Of a DNA stretch of 35,743 bases, positions 1 through 31,257 are shown piece after piece. The stretch's first letter is position 1. Each line of letters opens with the position of its first letter. The stretch covers positions 1 to 35,743 of the forward strand of contig CAJKKQ010000024.1 in NCBI GenBank assembly GCA_905200545.1. Reading direction: 5' to 3'. This DNA comes from an uncultured Oscillibacter sp. GTDB taxonomy: Bacteria > Bacillota > Clostridia > Oscillospirales > Oscillospiraceae. Made by a program: the position numbers and the translations under genes. The notes below the pieces were generated by a model. The model did not search any database, was not told the origin of the DNA, and saw only the letters and a program-made list of their open reading frames with translations.

Positions 1-233
1 GGACCTTCTCCACCAACGGCGTTTCCATCCAGGGCCGCTACGGCATCCCCTGCGTGGGCTTCGGCCCCGGCGCCGAGTCTCAGGCTCACGCCCCCAACGA
101 GATCACCTGGAAGCAGGATCTGGTGACCTGTGCCGCCATGTACGTGGCCGCCGTGAACCTCTACAAGGAAGAGAACAAGACCGCCGATGTCACCGAGTTC
201 CGCCAGAGCCTGACGGACAACGTCATCCAGTGA
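1..233 (+). CDS. ygeY: YgeY-family M20 hydrolase, C-terminal fragment
   Basis: This is the last 76 codons of a gene that begins left of the window; the frame opens at base 3 and stops with TGA at 231-233. The visible protein has the family's C-terminal pattern: [15 protein letters not shown], then GFGPG, then an AHAPNE motif (the conserved metal-site His region of M20 amidohydrolases), then [13 protein letters not shown]. YgeY proteins are zinc-type M20 peptidases/deacylases found with selenium-dependent molybdenum hydroxylases and with ygeW, ygeX and ygfK in anaerobic purine breakdown. The exact substrate is not established here. The ygeW gene follows on the same strand after about 210 bases. 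Identity rests on the tail only, but gene order supports it strongly. Confidence 0.85.
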
Positions 234-237
234 TTCC

Positions 238-410
238 TCGAGGGGGAGCAAGCTCCCCCTCGACCTCCCCCACCACCAGTGACACCGCGTCACTGGTGTG
301 TGCGCCCAAGGCGCACAAGTCATTGTATTTTCACCACGTACACGCCGCGGTGAAAATGATTGAAATTCTTTTGCCGCACCGCGGCAAAACTCTGCGAGGC
401 GACTTGCCTC
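238..410. repeat. String of six consecutive perfect hairpins in the ygeY-ygeW spacer
   Basis: Six inverted repeats lie end to end. Arms are 238-249/252-263 (12 bp, loop 2), 274-283/289-298 (10 bp, loop 5), 300-306/310-316 (7 bp, loop 3), 327-335/349-357 (9 bp, loop 13), 369-377/381-389 (9 bp, loop 3) and 396-400/406-410 (5 bp, loop 5). All arms pair perfectly and each hairpin has a different sequence. About 104 of 173 bases are in stems. None has a clear U-tract, so they are not simple terminators. A self-palindromic AT-rich 12-mer (416-427) follows, just before the ygeW ribosome site. Possible roles are mRNA stabilisation, attenuation, a protein-binding array or nested palindromic insertions. 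Confidence 0.8.
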
Positions 411-441
411 CTCCAAAATTATAATTTAAGGAGAGCTGATT

Positions 442-1632
442 ATGTCCAAGACCATCGAGCTGGCGCAGCATCTGGAAAAGCTGCACATCAACAATATGTA
501 CAAGTCCGACTTCTACTGGACCTGGGACAAGACCGACGAGGAGCTGGACGCCATCTTCACCGTGGCCGACGCCCTGCGTGACCTGCGGGAGCGCAACAAG
601 TCCACCCGGATCTTTGATTCCGGCCTGGGCATCTCCATCTTCCGGGACAACTCCACCCGTACCCGCTTCTCCTTTGCCTCCGCCTGCAACCTGCTGGGCC
701 TGAACGTCCAGGATCTGGATGAGAAGAAGAGCCAGATCGCCCACGGCGAGACCGTCCGTGAGACTGCCAACATGGTCTCCTTCATGGCCGACGTCATCGG
801 CATCCGGGACGACATGTTCATCGGCGAGGGCCACAAGTATCAGAAGACTTTCATGGACGCCGTGGCCGAGGGATACCGGGACGGCATCCTGGAGCAGCGT
901 CCCACCCTGGTGAATCTCCAGTGCGACGTGGACCATCCCACCCAGTGCATGGCCGACATGCTGCACATCATCCACCACTTCGGCGGCGTGGAGAACCTCA
1001 AGGGCAAGAAGATCGCCATGACCTGGGCCTATTCTCCCTCCTACGGCAAGCCCCTGTCCGTTCCCCAGGGCGTCATCGGATTGATGACCCGCTTCGGCAT
1101 GGACGTGGTGCTGGCCCACCCCGAGGGCTATGACGTGATGCCCGAGGTGGAGGAGATTGCCAAGAAGAACGCCGCAGCCACCGGCGGCACCTATAAGAAG
1201 GTCGCCACCATGGAAGAGGCCTTCGACGGCGCCGACATCGTCTATCCCAAGTCCTGGGCTCCCTTTGCCGCCATGGAGCAGCGCACGAAGCTCTATCAGG
1301 CCGGTGACCAGGCCGGCATCGACGCCCTGGAAAAGCAGCTGCTGGCCCAGAACGCCCAGTTCAAGAACTGGACCTGCTCTGAGGAGATGATGAAGCGCAC
1401 CAAGAACGGCAGCGCCCTGTATATGCACTGCCTGCCCGCCGACATCACGGGCCTGTCCTGCAAGGAGGGCGAGGTGGACAACTCCGTGTTCGACCGCTAC
1501 ATCGATCCTCTGTACAAGGAAGCCAGCTACAAGCCCTATGTCATCGCCGCCATGATTATGATGGCCAAGGTGAAGGATCCTGTGTCCGCCCTGATGGCCA
1601 TGGACGCCGGCAGCAAGCGCAAGCTGTACTAA
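442..1632 (+). CDS. ygeW: Knotted carbamoyltransferase YgeW
   Basis: The 396-residue protein is of the aspartate/ornithine carbamoyltransferase fold, YgeW branch. The carbamoyl-phosphate loop is S71-T72-R73-T74-R75 inside RDNSTRTRFSFAS, and the HCLP signature is at H329-P332. The family is known to have a knotted fold and a catabolic role. In purine-degrading anaerobes it is thought to act on ureido intermediates and release carbamoyl phosphate; that substrate is inferred from context here. The ATG at 442 follows an AAGGAGAG site at 428-435. It lies between ygeY and carbamate kinase, so the carbamoyl group can be passed on to make ATP. Strings of hairpins flank it on both sides. Confidence 0.95.
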   Translation: MSKTIELAQHLEKLHINNMYKSDFYWTWDKTDEELDAIFTVADALRDLRERNKSTRIFDSGLGISIFRDNSTRTRFSFASACNLLGLNVQDLDEKKSQIAHGETVRETANMVSFMADVIGIRDDMFIGEGHKYQKTFMDAVAEGYRDGILEQRPTLVNLQCDVDHPTQCMADMLHIIHHFGGVENLKGKKIAMTWAYSPSYGKPLSVPQGVIGLMTRFGMDVVLAHPEGYDVMPEVEEIAKKNAAATGGTYKKVATMEEAFDGADIVYPKSWAPFAAMEQRTKLYQAGDQAGIDALEKQLLAQNAQFKNWTCSEEMMKRTKNGSALYMHCLPADITGLSCKEGEVDNSVFDRYIDPLYKEASYKPYVIAAMIMMAKVKDPVSALMAMDAGSKRKLY

Positions 1633-1639
1633 GCACACC

Positions 1640-1752
1640 GCCCGCACCAGCGGGCCCCTATGAACGAACCAGAAACATTTGGCGGGAATGTGGCACCATG
1701 TTCCCGCCAAATCTTTACCCGCCGGGTTTTCCCCGCAGGCTGCGGAGCCTGC
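1640..1752. repeat. String of hairpins in the ygeW-carbamate kinase spacer
   Basis: Three perfect inverted repeats lie in a row: 1640-1645/1650-1655 (6 bp, loop ACCA), 1677-1688/1701-1712 (12 bp, arms atttggcgggaa and its complement, loop 12) and 1735-1741/1746-1752 (7 bp, loop GCGG). A weak 4-bp hairpin at 1717-1727 sits between the last two. There is no U-tract after the big stem (it is followed by CTTT, then ACCC), so termination is doubtful. The design resembles the longer string before ygeW, but the sequences differ. Confidence 0.75.
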
Positions 1753-1782
1753 ACATTAAATTTTAGACGAGGTGTCACCACA

Positions 1783-2718
1783 ATGGGTAAACGCATTGTC
1801 ATCGCTCTGGGCGGCAACGCTCTGGGCAAGAATCTGCCGGAACAGATGGCTGCCGTGAAGCATACCGCCCGGGCCATCGTAGATCTCATCGAAGAAGGGC
1901 ACCAGGTGGTGGTGGCCCACGGCAACGGCCCCCAGGTGGGCATGATCAATACCGCCATGACCACCCTCTCCCGGGAAGACCCCACACATCCCATGGCTCC
2001 CATGTCCGTGTGCACGGCCATGAGCCAGGGCTATATCGGCTACGATCTGCAAAACTCCCTGCGGGAGGAGCTGCTGGACCGGGGCATCAACAAACCGGTG
2101 GCCACCATCCTCACTCAGGTGGAAGTGGACCCCGACGATCCCGCTTTCCAGAATCCCACCAAGCCCATCGGCACCTTCATGACCGAAGCGGAGGCGGAGG
2201 AAATGCGCCGCCGTGGCAACGCCGTGATGGAAGATGCCGGCCGGGGCTGGCGGCGCTGCGTGGCCTCTCCCCTGCCTAAATCCATCATTGAGATCGACAC
2301 CATCCGGGCCCTGGTGGACGCCGGACAGGTGGCTGTGGCCTGCGGCGGCGGCGGCATCCCCGTCTACAAGACGGAGGGCCACCACCTCAAGGGTGCCGGT
2401 GCCGTCATCGACAAGGATTTCGCCTCCGAACTGCTGGCAGAACAGCTGGACGCGGACACCCTCATCATCCTCACCGCCGTGGAAAAGGTAGCCGTCAACT
2501 TCGGCAAGCCCGACCAGCAGTGGCTGGATCATCTGACTCCGGAAGAAGCCCGCAAGTACGAGGCGGAGGGTCAGTTTGCCCCCGGCTCCATGCTGCCCAA
2601 GGTGCAGGCTGCGGTAAAATTTGCCCAGTCCAAGCCCGGCCGCACCGCCCTGATCACCCTGTTGGAAAAGGCCAAGGACGGTATCGCCGGCCGCACCGGC
2701 ACCGCCGTTTCCCAGTAA
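1783..2718 (+). CDS. arcC: Carbamate kinase
   Basis: The 311-residue protein transfers phosphate between carbamoyl phosphate and ADP, giving ATP, CO2 and ammonia. It shows the family's N-terminal glycine motif (GGNALG from G10) and the strongly conserved HGNGPQVG block (H46-G53), and its length is typical of ArcC/YqeA. The frame is open further upstream to 1660, but that part would encode the hairpin spacer. The ATG at 1783 has a GAGG-type site at 1769-1772 and begins the conserved MGKRIVIALGGNA segment, so it is chosen. Placed directly after ygeW, it is the likely energy-yielding last step of ureido/purine catabolism (E. coli counterpart YqeA). A strong terminator follows. Confidence 0.95.
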   Translation: MGKRIVIALGGNALGKNLPEQMAAVKHTARAIVDLIEEGHQVVVAHGNGPQVGMINTAMTTLSREDPTHPMAPMSVCTAMSQGYIGYDLQNSLREELLDRGINKPVATILTQVEVDPDDPAFQNPTKPIGTFMTEAEAEEMRRRGNAVMEDAGRGWRRCVASPLPKSIIEIDTIRALVDAGQVAVACGGGGIPVYKTEGHHLKGAGAVIDKDFASELLAEQLDADTLIILTAVEKVAVNFGKPDQQWLDHLTPEEARKYEAEGQFAPGSMLPKVQAAVKFAQSKPGRTALITLLEKAKDGIAGRTGTAVSQ

Positions 2719-2761
2719 GCGGGCACGCTTGGGCGAAAAAAGGTTGAACTGTTTATTTTGT

Positions 2762-2795
2762 ACAAGGAGAGCGAGTTTTTCGCTCTCCTTGTTTG
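2762..2795 (+). terminator. Rho-independent terminator after carbamate kinase
   Basis: A perfect 13-bp stem (2762-2774/2780-2792, arm acaaggagagcga) has a 5-base GTTTT loop and is followed by a T-rich stretch. It closes the ygeY-ygeW-arcC unit before the importer genes. Confidence 0.85.
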
Positions 2796-2889
2796 CTATT
2801 ATTTGTGCTTTTCTGTCTTTTTGCACAAAGGTCAACCTATACAAGTTTATTTTTTCTGGTTCTTACAACCAACAAACGTAAAAATTTAG

Positions 2890-2918
2890 TTGAATTTTTA
2901 TGTTTTGGAATGTATGAT
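2890..2918 (+). promoter_or_regulatory. Sigma-A promoter of the BMP lipoprotein/ABC importer
   Basis: TTGAAT (2890-2895), a 17-bp spacer and TATGAT (2913-2918). Transcription would start near 2925, leaving a leader of about 65 bases. I see no purine-riboswitch core in that leader. Confidence 0.7.
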
Positions 2919-2991
2919 GAACATAAGCAGAATGTTCCAACCATCCTGCCCACTGGTAATCGTTTTACTATTTTTTAAGGAGGAATCCAGA

Positions 2992-4260
2992 ATGAAGAAG
3001 TTTCTTGCGCTTCTCCTGGCCATGGTGATGTCTCTGAGCCTGGCTGCCTGCGGCGGCTCCGACACGGAAGATACCACCACCACCACTGACGACACTGCCA
3101 CGGAAGAGTCCGCCGCTTCTGATGTGAAGATCGGCCTCATCTGCGTGCACGATGTCAACTCCGGTTACGATGCCGCCCACATCGAGGGCCTCACCGCTGC
3201 CTGTGAGGAACTGGGCATCGATGTTGACAGCCAGGTAGTCTTCAAGTACAACATCGCTGAGGATCAGAACTGCTACGATGCCGCCGTGGACCTGGCGGAG
3301 CAGGGCTGCAACATCATTTTCTCTGATTCTTACGGCCATCAGACCTACATGCTCCAGGCCGCCCGTGACTATTCCGACATCACCTTCGTCTCCTGCACCG
3401 GCGACCAGGCTGGCGTCGCGGGCCTGGACAACTTCAAGAACATTTTCCCCTATACTTATGAGTCCCGCTACGTCTCCGGCGTGGTGGCCGGCATGAAGCT
3501 CAAGGAGCTGATGGACGCCGGTACCGTCACCGATCCTTATGTGGGCTATGTGGGTGCCTTCCCCTATGCCGAGGTGGTCTGCGGCTACACCGCGTTCCTG
3601 CTGGGCATCCAGTCCATCGTTCCCGAGGCTCACATGGACGTGCAGTACACCAACTCCTGGTATGATCCTGTTGCTGAGGGCGAGGCTGCCAATACCCTGA
3701 TGGCCCGCGGCTGCGTCATCATCGGCCAGCACGCTGACTCCACCGGCGCTCCCTCCGCTGTCCAGGAGGCCCAGGACAAGGGCACTGTGGCTTACTCTGT
3801 GGGCTACAACATCGACATGCTCTCCGTGGCTCCCACCGCCGCTCTGACTTCTGCCCAGAACAACTGGTCTGTTCTGTATAAGGCCACTCTGGAGAAGTTC
3901 ATTGCCGGCGAGGAGATCCCCGCTGACTATGCTACCGGCCACGCCAACAATGCCGTTATGATCTCCGCCCTGGGCGAGAGCTGTGCTGAGGGCACCCAGG
4001 AGGCCGTGGACGCCGCTTGGGCCGGCATTGACGACGGCAGCCTGAAGGTGTTCGACACCTCCAAGTTCACCGTGGGCGGCCAGACCGTCACCGAGTATGA
4101 GGTGAACTTCTCCATCATCGACTTTGCCACCGGCGACGTGGTGTTCGAGGGTCCCACCGAGAACGTCATTGCGGACGGTGCCTTCCAGGAGTCCGTGTGC
4201 CGCAGCGCTCCTTACTTCGATCTGCGCATCGACGGCATCACCGAGCTCAACAACAACTAA
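2992..4260 (+). CDS. BMP-family lipoprotein, nucleoside/purine-type solute-binding protein
   Basis: The 422-residue protein starts with MKKFLALLLAMVMSLSLAAC, a lipoprotein signal with the modified cysteine at C20, then an acidic Thr-rich linker. The body from about residue 45 matches the Bmp/Med family (VKIGLICVHDVNSGYD, VVFKYNIAEDQNCYDAA, FVSCTGDQAG, PYTYESRYVSGVVAGMK). These proteins bind nucleosides or related ligands outside the membrane and hand them to an ABC importer; B. subtilis NupN is a known case. The ATG at 2992 is 8 bases after AAGGAGG (2977-2983). It has its own promoter and is followed by a terminator before the ATPase gene, as expected when the binding protein is made in excess. 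A purine or urate ligand is inferred from the neighbouring ygeW and carbamate kinase genes. Confidence 0.9.
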   Translation: MKKFLALLLAMVMSLSLAACGGSDTEDTTTTTDDTATEESAASDVKIGLICVHDVNSGYDAAHIEGLTAACEELGIDVDSQVVFKYNIAEDQNCYDAAVDLAEQGCNIIFSDSYGHQTYMLQAARDYSDITFVSCTGDQAGVAGLDNFKNIFPYTYESRYVSGVVAGMKLKELMDAGTVTDPYVGYVGAFPYAEVVCGYTAFLLGIQSIVPEAHMDVQYTNSWYDPVAEGEAANTLMARGCVIIGQHADSTGAPSAVQEAQDKGTVAYSVGYNIDMLSVAPTAALTSAQNNWSVLYKATLEKFIAGEEIPADYATGHANNAVMISALGESCAEGTQEAVDAAWAGIDDGSLKVFDTSKFTVGGQTVTEYEVNFSIIDFATGDVVFEGPTENVIADGAFQESVCRSAPYFDLRIDGITELNNN

Positions 4261-8245: not shown

Positions 8246-8935
8246 ATGCGTCTGCCGTCCTCCTCTCCCCTGAGGGAGCTGAAGTACGCTTTGTGGTTCC
8301 CGGCCTATCTGCTGGCCTACGCCCTGGCGGAGCATCTGGTCACCACCCGCTACTGGGCCACCGAGCTGCCTGTGGACAACTGCATTCCTTTCAGCCAGTA
8401 CGCCCTGATTCCGTACAGTCTGTGGTATCCACTGCTCATCGGGCTGGGGTTGTACCTGCTGTTCCGGGACAGCGCTTCTTTCCGGCGGTACATGTGCTAT
8501 CTGGCGCTGACCTTTTTCCTCAGCGTGGCCATCTGGCTGCTGGTCCCCAACGGACAGGATCTGCGCCCTCAGATAGAGGAAGGCGATTTTCTGTCCCAGG
8601 TGGTGGTGCAGCTCTACCGGATTGACACCAACACCAATGTCTTCCCCTCCGTCCATGTAGTAGGCGCGGTGGGTGCAGCGCTGGCGGCCTGGAACTGTCC
8701 CCGACTGCGCCGCCGTCCGGCTGTCTGCTGGAGCATTGTAGTGCTGGCGGCAGCTATCTGCCTATCCACACTGTTTCTCAAGCAGCATACCGTGCTGGAC
8801 GTGGCAGGCGGTCTGGTTCTCTCCACCCTGGTGGCAGTCCCTCTCTACCGCCGGTCTCCCGCTTCGGTACCTAAGCGGGCTGCTCCCATGAGCCGCCGGC
8901 GGAACGTCTCCAAAACCTCCCCGGATGCAAACTAA
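8246..8935 (+). CDS. PAP2-superfamily membrane phosphatase
   Basis: The 229-residue protein has about six hydrophobic segments and the type 2 phosphatidic acid phosphatase motifs. PSVH (P134-H137) is the central motif with catalytic-type His137, and S174...H181...D185 (STLFLKQHTVLD) is the third motif. The usual first motif (KxxxxxxRP) is not evident, so the protein may belong to the inositol-phosphorylceramide-synthase-like branch (PAP2_3). It probably works on a lipid phosphate at the membrane. The ATG at 8246 has GAGG (8234-8237) 8 bases upstream; a GTG at 8237 overlaps that site and is rejected. It stands alone between two terminators. I could not define its promoter with confidence. Confidence 0.85.
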   Translation: MRLPSSSPLRELKYALWFPAYLLAYALAEHLVTTRYWATELPVDNCIPFSQYALIPYSLWYPLLIGLGLYLLFRDSASFRRYMCYLALTFFLSVAIWLLVPNGQDLRPQIEEGDFLSQVVVQLYRIDTNTNVFPSVHVVGAVGAALAAWNCPRLRRRPAVCWSIVVLAAAICLSTLFLKQHTVLDVAGGLVLSTLVAVPLYRRSPASVPKRAAPMSRRRNVSKTSPDAN

Positions 8936-8972
8936 AAAAGACCCCGGAACCAGATGGTTCCGGGGTCTTTTT
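8935..8972. terminator. Bidirectional terminator between PAP2 gene and folD
   Basis: A 17-bp stem (8935-8951/8956-8972) has an AGAT loop. Its A- and T-rich ends allow it to work for both convergent genes. The folD stop codon lies at its edge. Confidence 0.88.
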
Positions 8973-18046: not shown

Positions 18047-18277
18047 ATGAAGGACTTGCTGCTCTACATCGCCAGGAACCTGGTGGATGATCCCGACGCC
18101 GTCTCCGTCACGGAGATCCAGGGCGATCAGGAGCTGACGTTGGAGCTGCGCGTCGCCCCCGACGACATGGGCAAGGTGATCGGCCGCCAGGGCCGCATCG
18201 CCAAGGAGATCCGGACTGTGATCCGCGCCTATGCCCAGCGCACCGGCGTCAAGGTTTCCGTGGATATTGTAGACTAA
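18047..18277 (+). CDS. khpA: KH-domain RNA-binding protein KhpA
   Basis: The 76-residue single KH domain has the GKVIGRQGRIAKEIRTVIR motif (GxxG loop). KhpA works with KhpB/Jag in RNA binding linked to cell division and size in Gram-positive bacteria. It begins 15 bases after rpsP, with GGAGG upstream. It ends the first half of the block; a bidirectional terminator overlaps its stop. Confidence 0.95.
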   Translation: MKDLLLYIARNLVDDPDAVSVTEIQGDQELTLELRVAPDDMGKVIGRQGRIAKEIRTVIRAYAQRTGVKVSVDIVD

Positions 18278-18309
18278 AAAAGAAGCGGCGCACAGCGCCG
18301 CTTCTTTTT
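18277..18309. terminator. Bidirectional terminator after khpA
   Basis: A 15-bp stem (18277-18291/18295-18309, arm aaaaagaagcggcgc) with loop ACA overlaps both convergent stop codons. Confidence 0.88.
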
Positions 18310-19887: not shown

Positions 19888-20737
19888 CATTCTCACCCTC
19901 TTTCCCGACGCCGTGGAGGCCTATACCGGTGTCAGCATTCTGGGCCGGGCCCAGCAGCGGGGCTATATCACCATCCGGGCCCACCAGATCCGCCAGTTCA
20001 CCACCAACAAGCAGATGCAGGTGGACGACTATCCCTACGGCGGCGGCCGGGGCGCCATCATGCAGGCAGACCCCCTGTACCGCTGCTGGGAGCATGTGGT
20101 GAATACCTATGGCCCCGGCCGCACCATCTTCCTCTCCCCCTGCGGCCGCACCTTTACCCAGAGCGTCGCCCGGGAGCTGCGGGAACAGTATGACCATCTG
20201 ATCCTGGTGTGCGGCCACTATGAGGGCATTGACCAGCGCTTCATTGACGCCTGCGTGGACGAGGAGATCTCCATGGGAGACTTCGTCCTCACCGGCGGAG
20301 AACTGCCCGCCATGGCGGTGGCGGACGCCGTGTGCCGCATGGTGCCGGGCGTCCTGCCGGACGCGGAGTGCTTTGAGGAGGAGTCCCACTGGAACGGCCT
20401 GCTGGAGTACCCCCAGTACTCCCGTCCCGCCGTATGGCATGACCGGGCGGTGCCGGAGATCCTCCTCTCGGGAGACCACGGTAAAGTGGCCGCCTGGCGG
20501 AAAAAGGAGAGCTACAAGCGCACCATGACCCGCCGGCCGGATATGTTCGCAAAATTTGACGAATCCCAGCTGACCACCAAGGCTGAACGGAAGATCCTGG
20601 CGGAGGCCAAGGCGGAGCTGGCGGCAGAACAGGCGGCCCGGGAAGCTGCAATCCAGGCAGAGGCCGCTGCTGCGGACAGTGCCCAGGACACGGCCAATAT
20701 TCCGGGTCAGCCGGACGCTGCGGCCCGCGCAGAATAA
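19877..20737 (+). CDS. trmD: tRNA (guanine-37-N1)-methyltransferase TrmD, long C-terminal tail
   Basis: The 286-residue protein methylates G37 of tRNAs using SAM in a trefoil-knot site. Motifs are MNIDILTLFPDAVEAY, DYPYGGGRGAIMQADPLY, LSPCGRTFTQ, LVCGHYEGIDQRF and GDFVLTGGELPAM. The usual family length is about 240-250; here about 45 extra residues follow the normal end and are Ala/Glu/Gln-rich (KAELAAEQAAREAAIQAEAA), probably a helix with a disordered end. The ATG at 19877 is in the conserved position and overlaps rimM. rplS, the common next gene, is absent. Confidence 0.96.
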   Translation: MNIDILTLFPDAVEAYTGVSILGRAQQRGYITIRAHQIRQFTTNKQMQVDDYPYGGGRGAIMQADPLYRCWEHVVNTYGPGRTIFLSPCGRTFTQSVARELREQYDHLILVCGHYEGIDQRFIDACVDEEISMGDFVLTGGELPAMAVADAVCRMVPGVLPDAECFEEESHWNGLLEYPQYSRPAVWHDRAVPEILLSGDHGKVAAWRKKESYKRTMTRRPDMFAKFDESQLTTKAERKILAEAKAELAAEQAAREAAIQAEAAAADSAQDTANIPGQPDAAARAE

Positions 20738-20745
20738 GCCTATGG

Positions 20746-20775
20746 AGAAAGCGGACTTCGGTCCGCTTTCTTTTT
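20746..20775 (+). terminator. UUCG-type terminator after trmD
   Basis: An 11-bp stem (20746-20756/20761-20771) is closed by the extra-stable C(TTCG)G tetraloop and followed by a T-run. Confidence 0.88.
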
Positions 20776-20817
20776 GCACCCCCGGTTTGTCCTCACAAAC
20801 TTTTTGCTGGGCCCCTC

Positions 20818-20846
20818 TTGACAAATACCCCCACGGGGTATATATT
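20818..20846 (+). promoter_or_regulatory. Promoter of copA-csoR-copZ
   Basis: TTGACA (20818-20823), 17-bp spacer, TATATT (20841-20846). The spacer is almost wholly occupied by the first CsoR-type operator. Confidence 0.88.
20825..20841. promoter_or_regulatory. CsoR operator 1
   Basis: ATACCCC-N3-GGGGTAT, the G-tract dyad bound by CsoR repressors, lies between the -35 and -10 boxes. Bound CsoR would block RNA polymerase; Cu(I) would release it. Confidence 0.85.
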
Positions 20847-20860
20847 GATGGACAGATAAA

Positions 20861-20877
20861 ATACCCCCCAGGGGTAT
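20861..20877. promoter_or_regulatory. CsoR operator 2
   Basis: A second ATACCCC-N3-GGGGTAT with the same arms and spacing sits 36 bp (centre to centre) after the first, in the early transcribed region and before the copA ribosome site. Confidence 0.83.
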
Positions 20878-20899
20878 TCCCTGGAGAAGGAGGCCTTCC

Positions 20900-23152
20900 A
20901 TGCGGGAAGAAAAATACGACATCTCCGGCATGCACTGTGCCGCGTGCAGTGCTTCCGTGGAAAAAGTCACCCGGCGGCTGCCGGGGGTGGAGCGCAGCGA
21001 CGTGAACCTCACCACCGGCATCATGACCATCTGCTATGACGAAAGCCAGGTACAGCCGGAGCAGATCGTGGCCAAGGTGGAAAAGGCGGGTTTCGGCGCT
21101 GCCCTCCATCAGGACCATCCGGCTCCTGCCGCGGCGCAGAGCGCAGAGGACGCAGAGGCGGCAGCCCTGCGGCGGAAAAAGACGGAGCTGATCGTCGCTG
21201 CCGTATTCTCGGTGGCGCTGCTGTACGTCTCCATGGGCCAGATGCTGCCCTTCGGCCTGCCTGCCCTGCCCCTGCCGGACATTTTTTCCATGCATACCCA
21301 TCCGGTGAATTTCGCCATTTTGCAGCTGATCCTGGCAGTTCCCGTCCTCTACTGCGGGCGAAACTTCTTCCTGGGAGGCTTCAAATCCCTCTTCCACGGC
21401 AATCCCAACATGGATTCCCTGGTAGCCATCGGTTCCGGCTGCTCCTTTGCATACAGCCTGGTGATGACCTTTCTGATCTCCGATGCCCCTCAGACCTATG
21501 TCCACAACCTCTACTATGAGTCCTCTGCCGTGGTGCTGACCCTGGTGTCCCTGGGCAAATTTCTGGAGAGCCGGAACATGCAGAAAACCAAGGGTGCCAT
21601 CACCGCCCTGATGCAGCTTGCCCCGGACACCGCCATCCTGGCGGACACCGGCCTGGAAGTCCCCACTGCCAGCCTGAAAGTCGGCGATACCGTGCTGGTA
21701 AAGCCCGGGGCTCGGATCCCCGCCGACGGCTCCGTAACGGAGGGCGAGAGCAGCGTCAACGAGGCCATGCTCACCGGTGAGAGCATGCCGGTGGAAAAGG
21801 GCCCCGGCAGCGAGGTCATCGGCGGCAGCGTCAACCAAAACGGCGTGCTGTACGTCCGGGTGACCCGCACGGGAGACGACACGACCCTCTCCCGAATCAT
21901 CCGGTTTGTGGAGGACGCCCAGGGGAAAAAAGCCCCCATCTCCAAGACCGCCGACAAAGTGGCCGGCGTCTTTGTCCCCACCGTCATCACCATTGCCCTG
22001 CTGGCCGCTGTGGCCTGGGCCATTGCAGGTGAGCCTTTCTCCTTTGTACTGCGGGTGTTCACCTCCGTGCTGGTGATCGCCTGCCCCTGCGCCCTGGGCC
22101 TGGCCACCCCCACCGCCATCATGGTGGGCACCGGGCTGGGCGCCCGTCACGGCATTCTGATCCGCTCCGGCGAGATCCTGGAGATCACCCACAGCGTGGA
22201 CACCGTGGTGCTGGACAAGACCGGCACCGTCACCCAGGGGACCCCTGCCGTGACGGAGATCGTGCCCTGGGAGACCACCCAGGAAACGCTCCTCACCACC
22301 GCCGCCGCGGTGGAGGCTGTGTCCTCCCATCCCCTGGCAGACGCCATCACCGCCTGTACCGGAGAGCGGGGGATCCAGCTCCAAGCACGGCCGGAATCCT
22401 TTGAGAACCTCTCCGGCCGGGGTCTCAAGGCCACCCTGGAGGGAAAGACCGTGCTGGCAGGAAACCGCCGTCTCCTGCAGGAGCACGGTGTGGATCCCGC
22501 TCCCCTGCAGGATCGGGCGGAGGCCCTCTCTGCCCAAGGGCAGACCCCCATGTACTTTGCTCTGGACGGGCGCCTTCTGGGCCTCATCTCTGTGGCCGAC
22601 CCGGTGAAGGAGACCAGTGCCGACGCCATCCGGCGTATGAAGGAATCCGGTATCCACACGGTACTCCTCACCGGCGACAACCGGGCCGCCGCGGAGCACA
22701 TCGGTGCTCTGGTGGGCGTGGACGAGGTCATCGCCGAGGTGCTGCCGGAGGAGAAAGCCGGGGTGGTGGAAAAGCTCCAGGCCCAGGGGCGCACTGTGAT
22801 GATGGTGGGTGACGGCATCAACGATGCCCCTGCCCTCACCGCCGCCACCGTGGGCTGCGCCATCGGCAGCGGCAGCGACATCGCCATTGAATCCGCCGAC
22901 ATCGTGCTGATGCGCTCCGACCTTCAGGATGTGCCCAGGGCCCTGCGCCTGTCCGCTCTGACCCTGCGGGACATCAAACAAAACCTCTTCTGGGCTTTCT
23001 GCTACAACACCATCGGCATCCCCATCGCCGCAGGGCTGCTGTATCTTTTCGGCGGGCCTCTGCTCTCCCCCATGTTTGCCGGGGCAGCCATGTCCCTGAG
23101 TTCCGTGTGCGTGGTGGGCAACGCCCTGCGTCTGGGCCGGGCAAAATTATAA
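20900..23152 (+). CDS. copA: Cu(I)-exporting P1B-type ATPase CopA
   Basis: The 750-residue membrane pump exports Cu(I). A single N-terminal heavy-metal domain carries GMHCAAC (C13, C16). Eight transmembrane segments are expected; the metal channel motif is C395-P-C397 (ACPCALGLATP). The phosphorylation site is D439 in DKTGT, SSHPLADA is the nucleotide-site HP motif, and GDGINDAPAL (from G637) is the hinge. Length is normal for one metal domain. The ATG has AAGGAGG upstream. It is first in the operon, under two CsoR operators, and csoR follows after 10 bases. Confidence 0.97.
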   Translation: MREEKYDISGMHCAACSASVEKVTRRLPGVERSDVNLTTGIMTICYDESQVQPEQIVAKVEKAGFGAALHQDHPAPAAAQSAEDAEAAALRRKKTELIVAAVFSVALLYVSMGQMLPFGLPALPLPDIFSMHTHPVNFAILQLILAVPVLYCGRNFFLGGFKSLFHGNPNMDSLVAIGSGCSFAYSLVMTFLISDAPQTYVHNLYYESSAVVLTLVSLGKFLESRNMQKTKGAITALMQLAPDTAILADTGLEVPTASLKVGDTVLVKPGARIPADGSVTEGESSVNEAMLTGESMPVEKGPGSEVIGGSVNQNGVLYVRVTRTGDDTTLSRIIRFVEDAQGKKAPISKTADKVAGVFVPTVITIALLAAVAWAIAGEPFSFVLRVFTSVLVIACPCALGLATPTAIMVGTGLGARHGILIRSGEILEITHSVDTVVLDKTGTVTQGTPAVTEIVPWETTQETLLTTAAAVEAVSSHPLADAITACTGERGIQLQARPESFENLSGRGLKATLEGKTVLAGNRRLLQEHGVDPAPLQDRAEALSAQGQTPMYFALDGRLLGLISVADPVKETSADAIRRMKESGIHTVLLTGDNRAAAEHIGALVGVDEVIAEVLPEEKAGVVEKLQAQGRTVMMVGDGINDAPALTAATVGCAIGSGSDIAIESADIVLMRSDLQDVPRALRLSALTLRDIKQNLFWAFCYNTIGIPIAAGLLYLFGGPLLSPMFAGAAMSLSSVCVVGNALRLGRAKL

Positions 23153-27990: not shown

Positions 27991-28028
27991 AAAAGGACGC
28001 TGTCCCCTGACGGGGACAGCGTCCTTTT
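27991..28028. terminator. Bidirectional terminator between pckA and the Crp-like gene
   Basis: A perfect 17-bp stem (27991-28007/28012-28028, arm aaaaggacgctgtcccc) has a TGAC loop and serves both convergent genes. Confidence 0.9.
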
Positions 28029-31218: not shown

Positions 31219-31257
31219 AAAAAGGAAGCGGATCGCGATGCGATCCGCTTCCTTTTT
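31219..31257. terminator. Bidirectional terminator after the ModE-like gene
   Basis: A perfect 18-bp stem (31219-31236/31240-31257) with loop GAT lies between convergent genes; the stop codon of the ModE-like gene abuts it. Confidence 0.9.

Follow-up and report, generated by a model that had tools for sequence, protein, structure and literature searches.

The spacer between a putative ygeY and ygeW in an uncultured Oscillibacter sp. is filled with perfect hairpins, and raises three questions: (i) whether this structure is a metabolite-controlled switch with a purine-specific role, as the original prediction proposed; (ii) whether it is peculiar to this operon; and (iii) if it is not, how it came to be dispersed. 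We analyzed the whole 35,743-nt stretch of DNA (hereafter the window), together with ygeW loci and genomes of related bacteria (loci are designated L and genomes G).

A chain of six hairpins between putative ygeY and ygeW

All coordinates are those of the window, and the features on which the argument depends are as follows.

3–233, plus strand: 3' end of the upstream gene, putative ygeY (by position and C-terminal similarity), with the stop codon TGA at 231–233
238–263, plus strand: hairpin H1, arms 238–249 and 252–263, stem of 11–12 bp (inverted-repeat search and RNA fold)
274–298, plus strand: hairpin H2, 10-nt arms 274–283 and 289–298 (CACCAGTGAC / GTCACTGGTG), homologous in other type A copies (see below)
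299–317, plus strand: hairpin H3, arms 299–306 and 310–317, stem of 8 bp, homologous in type A copies
327–357, plus strand: hairpin H4, the hallmark of the family described below, arms 327–338 and 346–357, 7-nt loop TACACGC at 339–345
369–389, plus strand: hairpin H5, arms 369–377 and 381–389, stem of 9 bp
390–410, plus strand: conserved tail CTCTGCGAGGC (390–400) and hairpin H6 (396–410), arms 396–400 and 406–410, stem of 5 bp
428–433, plus strand: ribosome-binding site AAGGAG of ygeW
442–1632, plus strand: ygeW, knotted carbamoyltransferase (TIGR03316, 766.8 bits), ATG at 442

The C-terminus encoded by the open frame at 3–230 matches that of the gene found upstream of ygeW in relatives, and H1 starts 4 nt past its stop codon, the same place that it occupies in type A copies. 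The arms of H4 are complementary at 11 of 12 positions, the outer nine pairs being perfect. Folding of 233–445 as RNA recovered all six hairpins at −94.3 kcal/mol, compared with a mean of −55.9 kcal/mol for shuffled sequences (z = −9.0; none of 200 shuffles was equally good), and the reverse strand of the spacer folds as well (z = −8.5). The string of six hairpins that had been described from the letters alone is thus real and extends over 238–410; most stem lengths are as first reported, but the third stem has 8 bp rather than 7. Likewise, the arms are mostly unrelated to one another, as had been claimed, but not entirely, since 344–352 in H4 is also complementary to 377–385 in H5.

Counting perfect stems of at least 7 bp with loops of 3–8 nt, four fall within one 190-nt stretch at this spacer, which is the maximum for the window, and no other stretch of the window holds four. 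Another spacer, at 20731–20930, has three perfect hairpins in 190 nt, to which our model of H4 (below) has no match. Long perfect stems (15–18 bp) whose arms contain runs of A and of T lie at 8935–8972, 18277–18309, 27991–28028 and 31219–31257, and these four resemble bidirectional terminators.

Stable hairpins in a 3' position might form an array of transcription terminators or RNA-processing sites that has nothing to do with mobility, and some versions of H1 in other copies do have A-runs and T-runs within their arms. A terminator scan of 1–3000, however, listed no stem with a T-run at 238–417, in agreement with the earlier observation that U-tracts are lacking, so that nothing there qualifies as an intrinsic terminator; moreover, in one genome (G075, below), the terminator-like hairpins are locus-specific and adjoin the element rather than lying inside it. 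We consider a terminator or processing array quite unlikely.

A dispersed repeat behind unrelated genes

The design of H4 made the element recognizable elsewhere: a variable stem, with a T-run before it and an A-run after it, encloses a 7-nt loop that has two versions, CGCATGT and, as in the window, TACACGC. A pattern with the CGCATGT loop was found in nine of 12 genomes, in both contig orientations (three of 12 for a backward control), and it also matched 62 among 200 genomes from the bacterial family, where some matches are chance by eye; the TACACGC pattern was found in 11 of 15 genomes (control, two of 15). A covariance model of H4, R1, was built from 54 rows, the window among them, and its sole match in the window listed at E ≤ 0.1 is at 325–359 (46.3 bits, E = 2.1e-7). 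R1 matched all of 20 genomes, most of which were chosen as known or likely carriers, with from two to at least 147 matches each (147 among 150 candidates scored). Among evenly drawn genomes, it matched at least 73 of 200 from the family and at least two of 196 from the class, both of the latter being family members and one the centre genome itself; the large searches used stricter filters and limited the number of candidates, and their counts are lower bounds. The element is thus multi-copy and dispersed, as are MITEs, and is restricted to this family of bacteria.

Two types of copy were distinguished. Type A, to which the window belongs, has H1 with arms GGGGGAG/CTCCCCC, H2 with CCAGTGAC/GTCACTGG, H3, H4 and H5, and the outer pairs of H3 covary among its copies. 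In type B, an H1 with arms such as CAAAAAAGTGC/GCACTTTTTTG is accompanied by a compound stem, by H4 and H5 and, in many copies, by the tail CTCTGCGAGGC. H5 with this tail was found again in other copies, and the tail of the window is common to L002 and several type B copies. We conclude that window 238–410 very probably belongs to a family of non-coding repeats of about 150–260 bp, dispersed but limited to one lineage, with about five hairpins in fixed order.

For closer study, 140 copies were fetched, largely top-scoring or pattern-matching ones rather than a random draw, and genes around them were called by means of a codon model that had ygeW, ygeY and arcC frames as its training set and that underlies every orientation count given here. 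None of the 140 lies inside a called gene. The upstream gene is co-oriented with the element in 130 of 135 called cases (19 of 19 in G032, 14 of 14 in G075 and 97 of 102 elsewhere), and the element is anchored to the stop codon: outside G032 and G075, the H4 loop lies 93–108 nt past it in 57 of 97 co-oriented copies, and the first stem begins at a median of 5 nt past it, and at no more than 10 nt in 66 of 85 copies (those co-oriented, outside these two genomes and with the loop at most 215 nt from the stop). On the other side, a convergent gene follows the element in 37 of the 130 cases in which a downstream gene was called.

The upstream genes are of many unrelated kinds. Ten that were chosen from G001, G003, G004 and G005 include, by their Pfam domains, gyrB, purA, nrdD and proS, a KH-S1 protein (pnp-like) and an HU-type protein. 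In three genomes (L113, L123 and L157), the element is just ahead of an Rfam L10 leader, apparently in the rplA–rplJ spacer (names inferred), which makes a good locus for orthologous covariation comparison.

We collected 80 ygeW relatives from named genomes, of which 76 had scorable spacers; L019 (cut before the spacer) and L005, L049 and L067 (no upstream gene) were left out, and the window spacer was set by hand (234–441) because its upstream gene was miscalled. The gene caller is crude, and the long spacers of L007, L009, L014 and L022 may include coding sequence. In 53 of the 76, no perfect stem of at least 7 bp was present, many of these spacers being just 12–50 nt long. The same or a related chain occupies the ygeW spacer of the Oscillibacter relatives L001, L002, L004, L005, L006, L010 and L052; in L066 and L055, H4 is in the next spacer, behind ygeW, and in L046 it has the reversed orientation. 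The window and L001 have YgeW proteins that are 99% identical, yet they carry different element subtypes in the same spacer. L063 has a 571-nt ygeY–ygeW spacer with eight perfect stems and no match to the H4 model, possibly another repeat family.

These results bear directly on the proposal that the hairpins are a metabolite-sensing switch of a purine/urate operon, for which the position ahead of ygeW and the strong fold would speak. Rfam gave no match in the window at gathering score and none at the spacer at E ≤ 10, the same element is found behind gyrB, purA, proS, nrdD and other genes, and most ygeW relatives are without it. Strings of stems regardless of gene type had themselves been named in the original prediction as evidence against a purine-specific function, and that is what we observe. 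The operon-specific form of the switch is already contradicted, and we regard a purine riboswitch in general as extremely improbable.

On a YgeW tree of 70 rows (the window and 69 of the 80 loci, with L019, L049, L060, L061, L067, L069, L073 and L077–L080 omitted as cut or unclear, and L002, which has a degraded chain, scored as a non-carrier), the 10 carriers require eight changes, seven of them forced by well-supported branches, and presence is therefore patchy. The spacers of carriers and their close relatives differ accordingly in length: 191 nt in L010 versus 34 in L018 and 32 in L021, 200 in L032 versus 44 in L041, and 176 in L046 versus 35 in L037. The distribution of carriers differs from random just weakly, however (eight changes versus 9.5 with shuffled labels; 42 of 500 shuffles were as low), which is a point against reading the pattern as mobility.

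Paired changes and strand bias in the stems

The H4 alignment contains 54 picked rows; those omitted were mostly repeats and included L120, which has a shorter stem. In its 52 distinct rows, 95.3% of the cells pair, versus 46–69% with slid partners, and there are 128 two-sided changes versus two one-sided ones. Pairing is thus kept by paired changes, and the claim that unrelated arms conserve their pairing is borne out. Two of five covariation measures did not exceed shuffled alignments: the number of pairs with two-sided changes was matched by 221 of 500 shuffles and the number of pair types by 407 of 500.

Stem pairing may be maintained either by selection or by strand-switching during replication, which perfects imperfect inverted repeats. 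The latter, taken as neutral palindrome growth with neither selection nor movement, would account for a ratio of 128 to two that is more extreme than expected of ordinary RNA evolution, and for the palindromes nested in H1: in L276, L278, L279 and L280, four of nine aligned G075 copies, an extra perfect hairpin sits inside the H1 loop. These fit the idea of repeated nesting of small palindromes that had been put forward for the window, and indicate how palindrome chains can grow. Strand-switching does not, however, produce a constant succession of hairpins, the two invariant loop sequences or a strand bias of mismatches, nor does it disperse multiple copies with conserved cores. We think it unlikely as the whole explanation, but it may well act on the stems beside movement.

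The strand bias is as follows. One H4 pair is unpaired (A·C) on the gene strand in 21 of the 52 rows. Over 141 copies with 90 distinct H4 sequences, 990 cells comprise 946 Watson–Crick pairs, 36 A·C, one G·T and seven others, and 226 distinct other stems have 46 A·C versus 16 G·T on the gene strand (p = 0.0002, uncorrected for relatedness). Terminator-like stems, used as a control, have 38 G·T and 27 A·C (p = 0.21), which is in the expected direction, if weakly. As A·C exceeds G·T on the gene strand, the tolerated wobbles sit on the strand opposite the upstream gene; this is suggestive, at most, of that strand being the folded molecule under selection.

Both the placement and the bias are relevant to the view that the host maintains the element as a REP-type 3'-UTR structure, which would shield the 3' end of the upstream transcript or delay ribosomes at termination. 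The strict co-orientation, which exceeds the expectation for random insertion and could reflect a host function, and the median distance of 5 nt from the stop codon are both what this view would require; copies that are followed by a convergent gene have the upstream gene as their natural client. In Escherichia coli, according to PMC12306157, REPs no more than 15 nt from a stop codon stall ribosomes and lower translation. The patchy presence among close relatives, the flanking repeats that indicate movement (below) and the excess of A·C over G·T in H4 and in the other stems, which is contrary to a folded gene-strand RNA, argue against it. We consider host maintenance possible, if somewhat doubtful, as the main explanation. 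It is compatible with a mobile repeat, and both can be true together; among possible effects on ygeY and ygeW expression, REP-like action at the 3' end of the upstream transcript would be the likeliest side effect.

Marks of mobility and known mobile repeats

Direct repeats of at least 14 nt flank 21 of 140 copies, compared with one of 140 when flanks are swapped. In G075, all of the first 14 copies are flanked by a direct repeat of 14–40 nt that differs by locus; of ten more copies, seven have one (17–37 nt) and three do not, giving 21 of 24 examined. Outside G075, a flanking repeat was found in seven of 126 copies, and that of L266 is a hairpin common to G032 copies and may be no duplication. 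The flanking repeat lies on a perfect stem of at least 6 bp in 17 of 21 cases, versus 22 of 420 control segments; these were taken from the same loci and were unmatched for intergenic place. In G075 it is typically the local terminator-like hairpin, present on both sides of the element.

The ends of the element are inverted repeats, CAGNNTGTCRAAAAA, in both G075 and G032. In G075, the start CAGCGTGTCGAA and the typical end TTTTTTGACAGACTG form an imperfect inverted repeat, and inverted ends pair 234–261 bp apart (six pairs); in G032 they pair 205–206 bp apart (seven pairs, and one more at 112 bp). An alignment of nine of the 14 G075 copies has a conserved core and unrelated flanks. The window copy has a flanking repeat of only 10 nt, which is at chance level, and no recognizable inverted ends. 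Given the lack of these marks in the window copy and the presence of flanking repeats in only seven of the 126 copies outside G075, mobility is therefore documented for relatives of the window copy, not for its subtype.

Searches for a mobilizing gene were confined to the Y1 transposase family (PF01797) in 35 genomes, and none was found: members occur in 14 genomes, none of them the copy-rich G075 or G006–G010, and do not track copy number. Mobilization by a RAYT, as for REPs, was rejected on the grounds that several copy-rich genomes lack PF01797. Among the end matches followed up in G075, there were short elements only and no longer autonomous element sharing the same ends; two of the matches, L307 and L308, lie beside or within genes and look like chance. 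In phage and plasmid collections, there were only partial matches to a G075 element, covering 14–36% of the query, in the unannotated human-faecal phage records MT836333.1, MT838656.1, MT838885.1 and MT839839.1 and in one Vescimonas replicon; the G075 element may ride on phages.

Taken together, we consider it highly probable that the family is a mobile, non-autonomous, hairpin-targeting repeat, similar in kind to YPAL, and that the window holds an old copy that has no visible ends. The family would have spread by insertion into intergenic DNA at or beside palindromic, terminator-like hairpins; it would have moved by transposition, with hairpin DNA being targeted by an enzyme acting in trans. 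Insertion would leave the target hairpin on both sides, as is seen, with terminal inverted repeats, in one genome, G075. The copies that remain lie for the most part immediately after stop codons and run in the same direction as the upstream gene, and once settled they would become part of its 3' UTR or of an operon spacer; the window copy would descend from such an insertion. A bolder version of the mobile-repeat hypothesis, which we hold to be rather unlikely, is that the element recognizes a folded hairpin and not a sequence, cleaves terminator hairpins, extruded or transcribed, at their base such that the whole hairpin is copied on both sides, and travels as a strand-specific folded nucleic acid from the strand opposite the host gene. 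On this view, it would be understandable that the loops are fixed, that the two arms of a stem change together and that A·C exceeds G·T.

The family is a probable example of insertion directed by the shape of DNA. As a structured repeat that is common behind housekeeping genes in over a third of the genomes sampled from a family of gut bacteria (73 of 200), it also provides a natural experiment for the influence on gene expression of hairpins that follow stop codons, and it carries a warning: strong covariation in an operon spacer can stem from a mobile repeat, with no dedicated regulator.

That no named element has this design, as was originally stated, is true for Rfam, in which nine copies searched with their flanks gave only the neighboring L10 leader above gathering score, and no repeat of this sort was described for Oscillospiraceae in the literature searched. 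Small mobile repeats with palindromes as their insertion sites are nevertheless a known kind. The Enterococcus faecalis repeats (EFAR) are modular, length-variable palindromic miniature insertion sequences that target unrelated short stem-loops, and their insertion deletes much of the target stem-loop. Here, in contrast, whole hairpins stand on both sides of the insert. BOX elements of Streptococcus pneumoniae have the composition boxA–boxB–boxC. PMC3733652 lists EFAR among bacterial MITEs and describes REPs as short palindromes of 20–40 bp, and PMC10969869 presents BOX, RUP and SPRITE as small intergenic structured repeats of S. pneumoniae, a likeness by description to our element in another Gram-positive bacterium.

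REP/BIME elements, according to PMC12306157, are multi-copy extragenic palindromes, some of them just behind stop codons. The element described here is not a 20–40-bp palindrome accompanied by a RAYT but a multi-hairpin chain of about 150–260 bp, with no tie to Y1 (RAYT-type) transposases found in the 35 genomes. A close likeness, by description and not by sequence, is to YPAL (RU-2) of Yersinia, which PMC2229807 describes as a small intergenic mobile repeat with internal inverted repeats, whose target duplications vary from 3 to 26 bp, whose targets span or adjoin dyad symmetry and which may affect the stability of upstream transcripts. Hairpin targets of the YPAL or EFAR type are seen for G075-type copies, not for the window copy. 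Our element differs from YPAL in its host, in the terminal inverted repeats of G075 and G032, in duplications of up to 40 nt and in being a chain of several separate hairpins, the stems of which turn over while pairing and loops stay. As far as the literature searched shows, its new features are the lineage, the fixed hairpin chain and its two fixed loops, the scarcity of stem changes on one side only, the strictness of its orientation and the whole hairpins on both sides of the insert.
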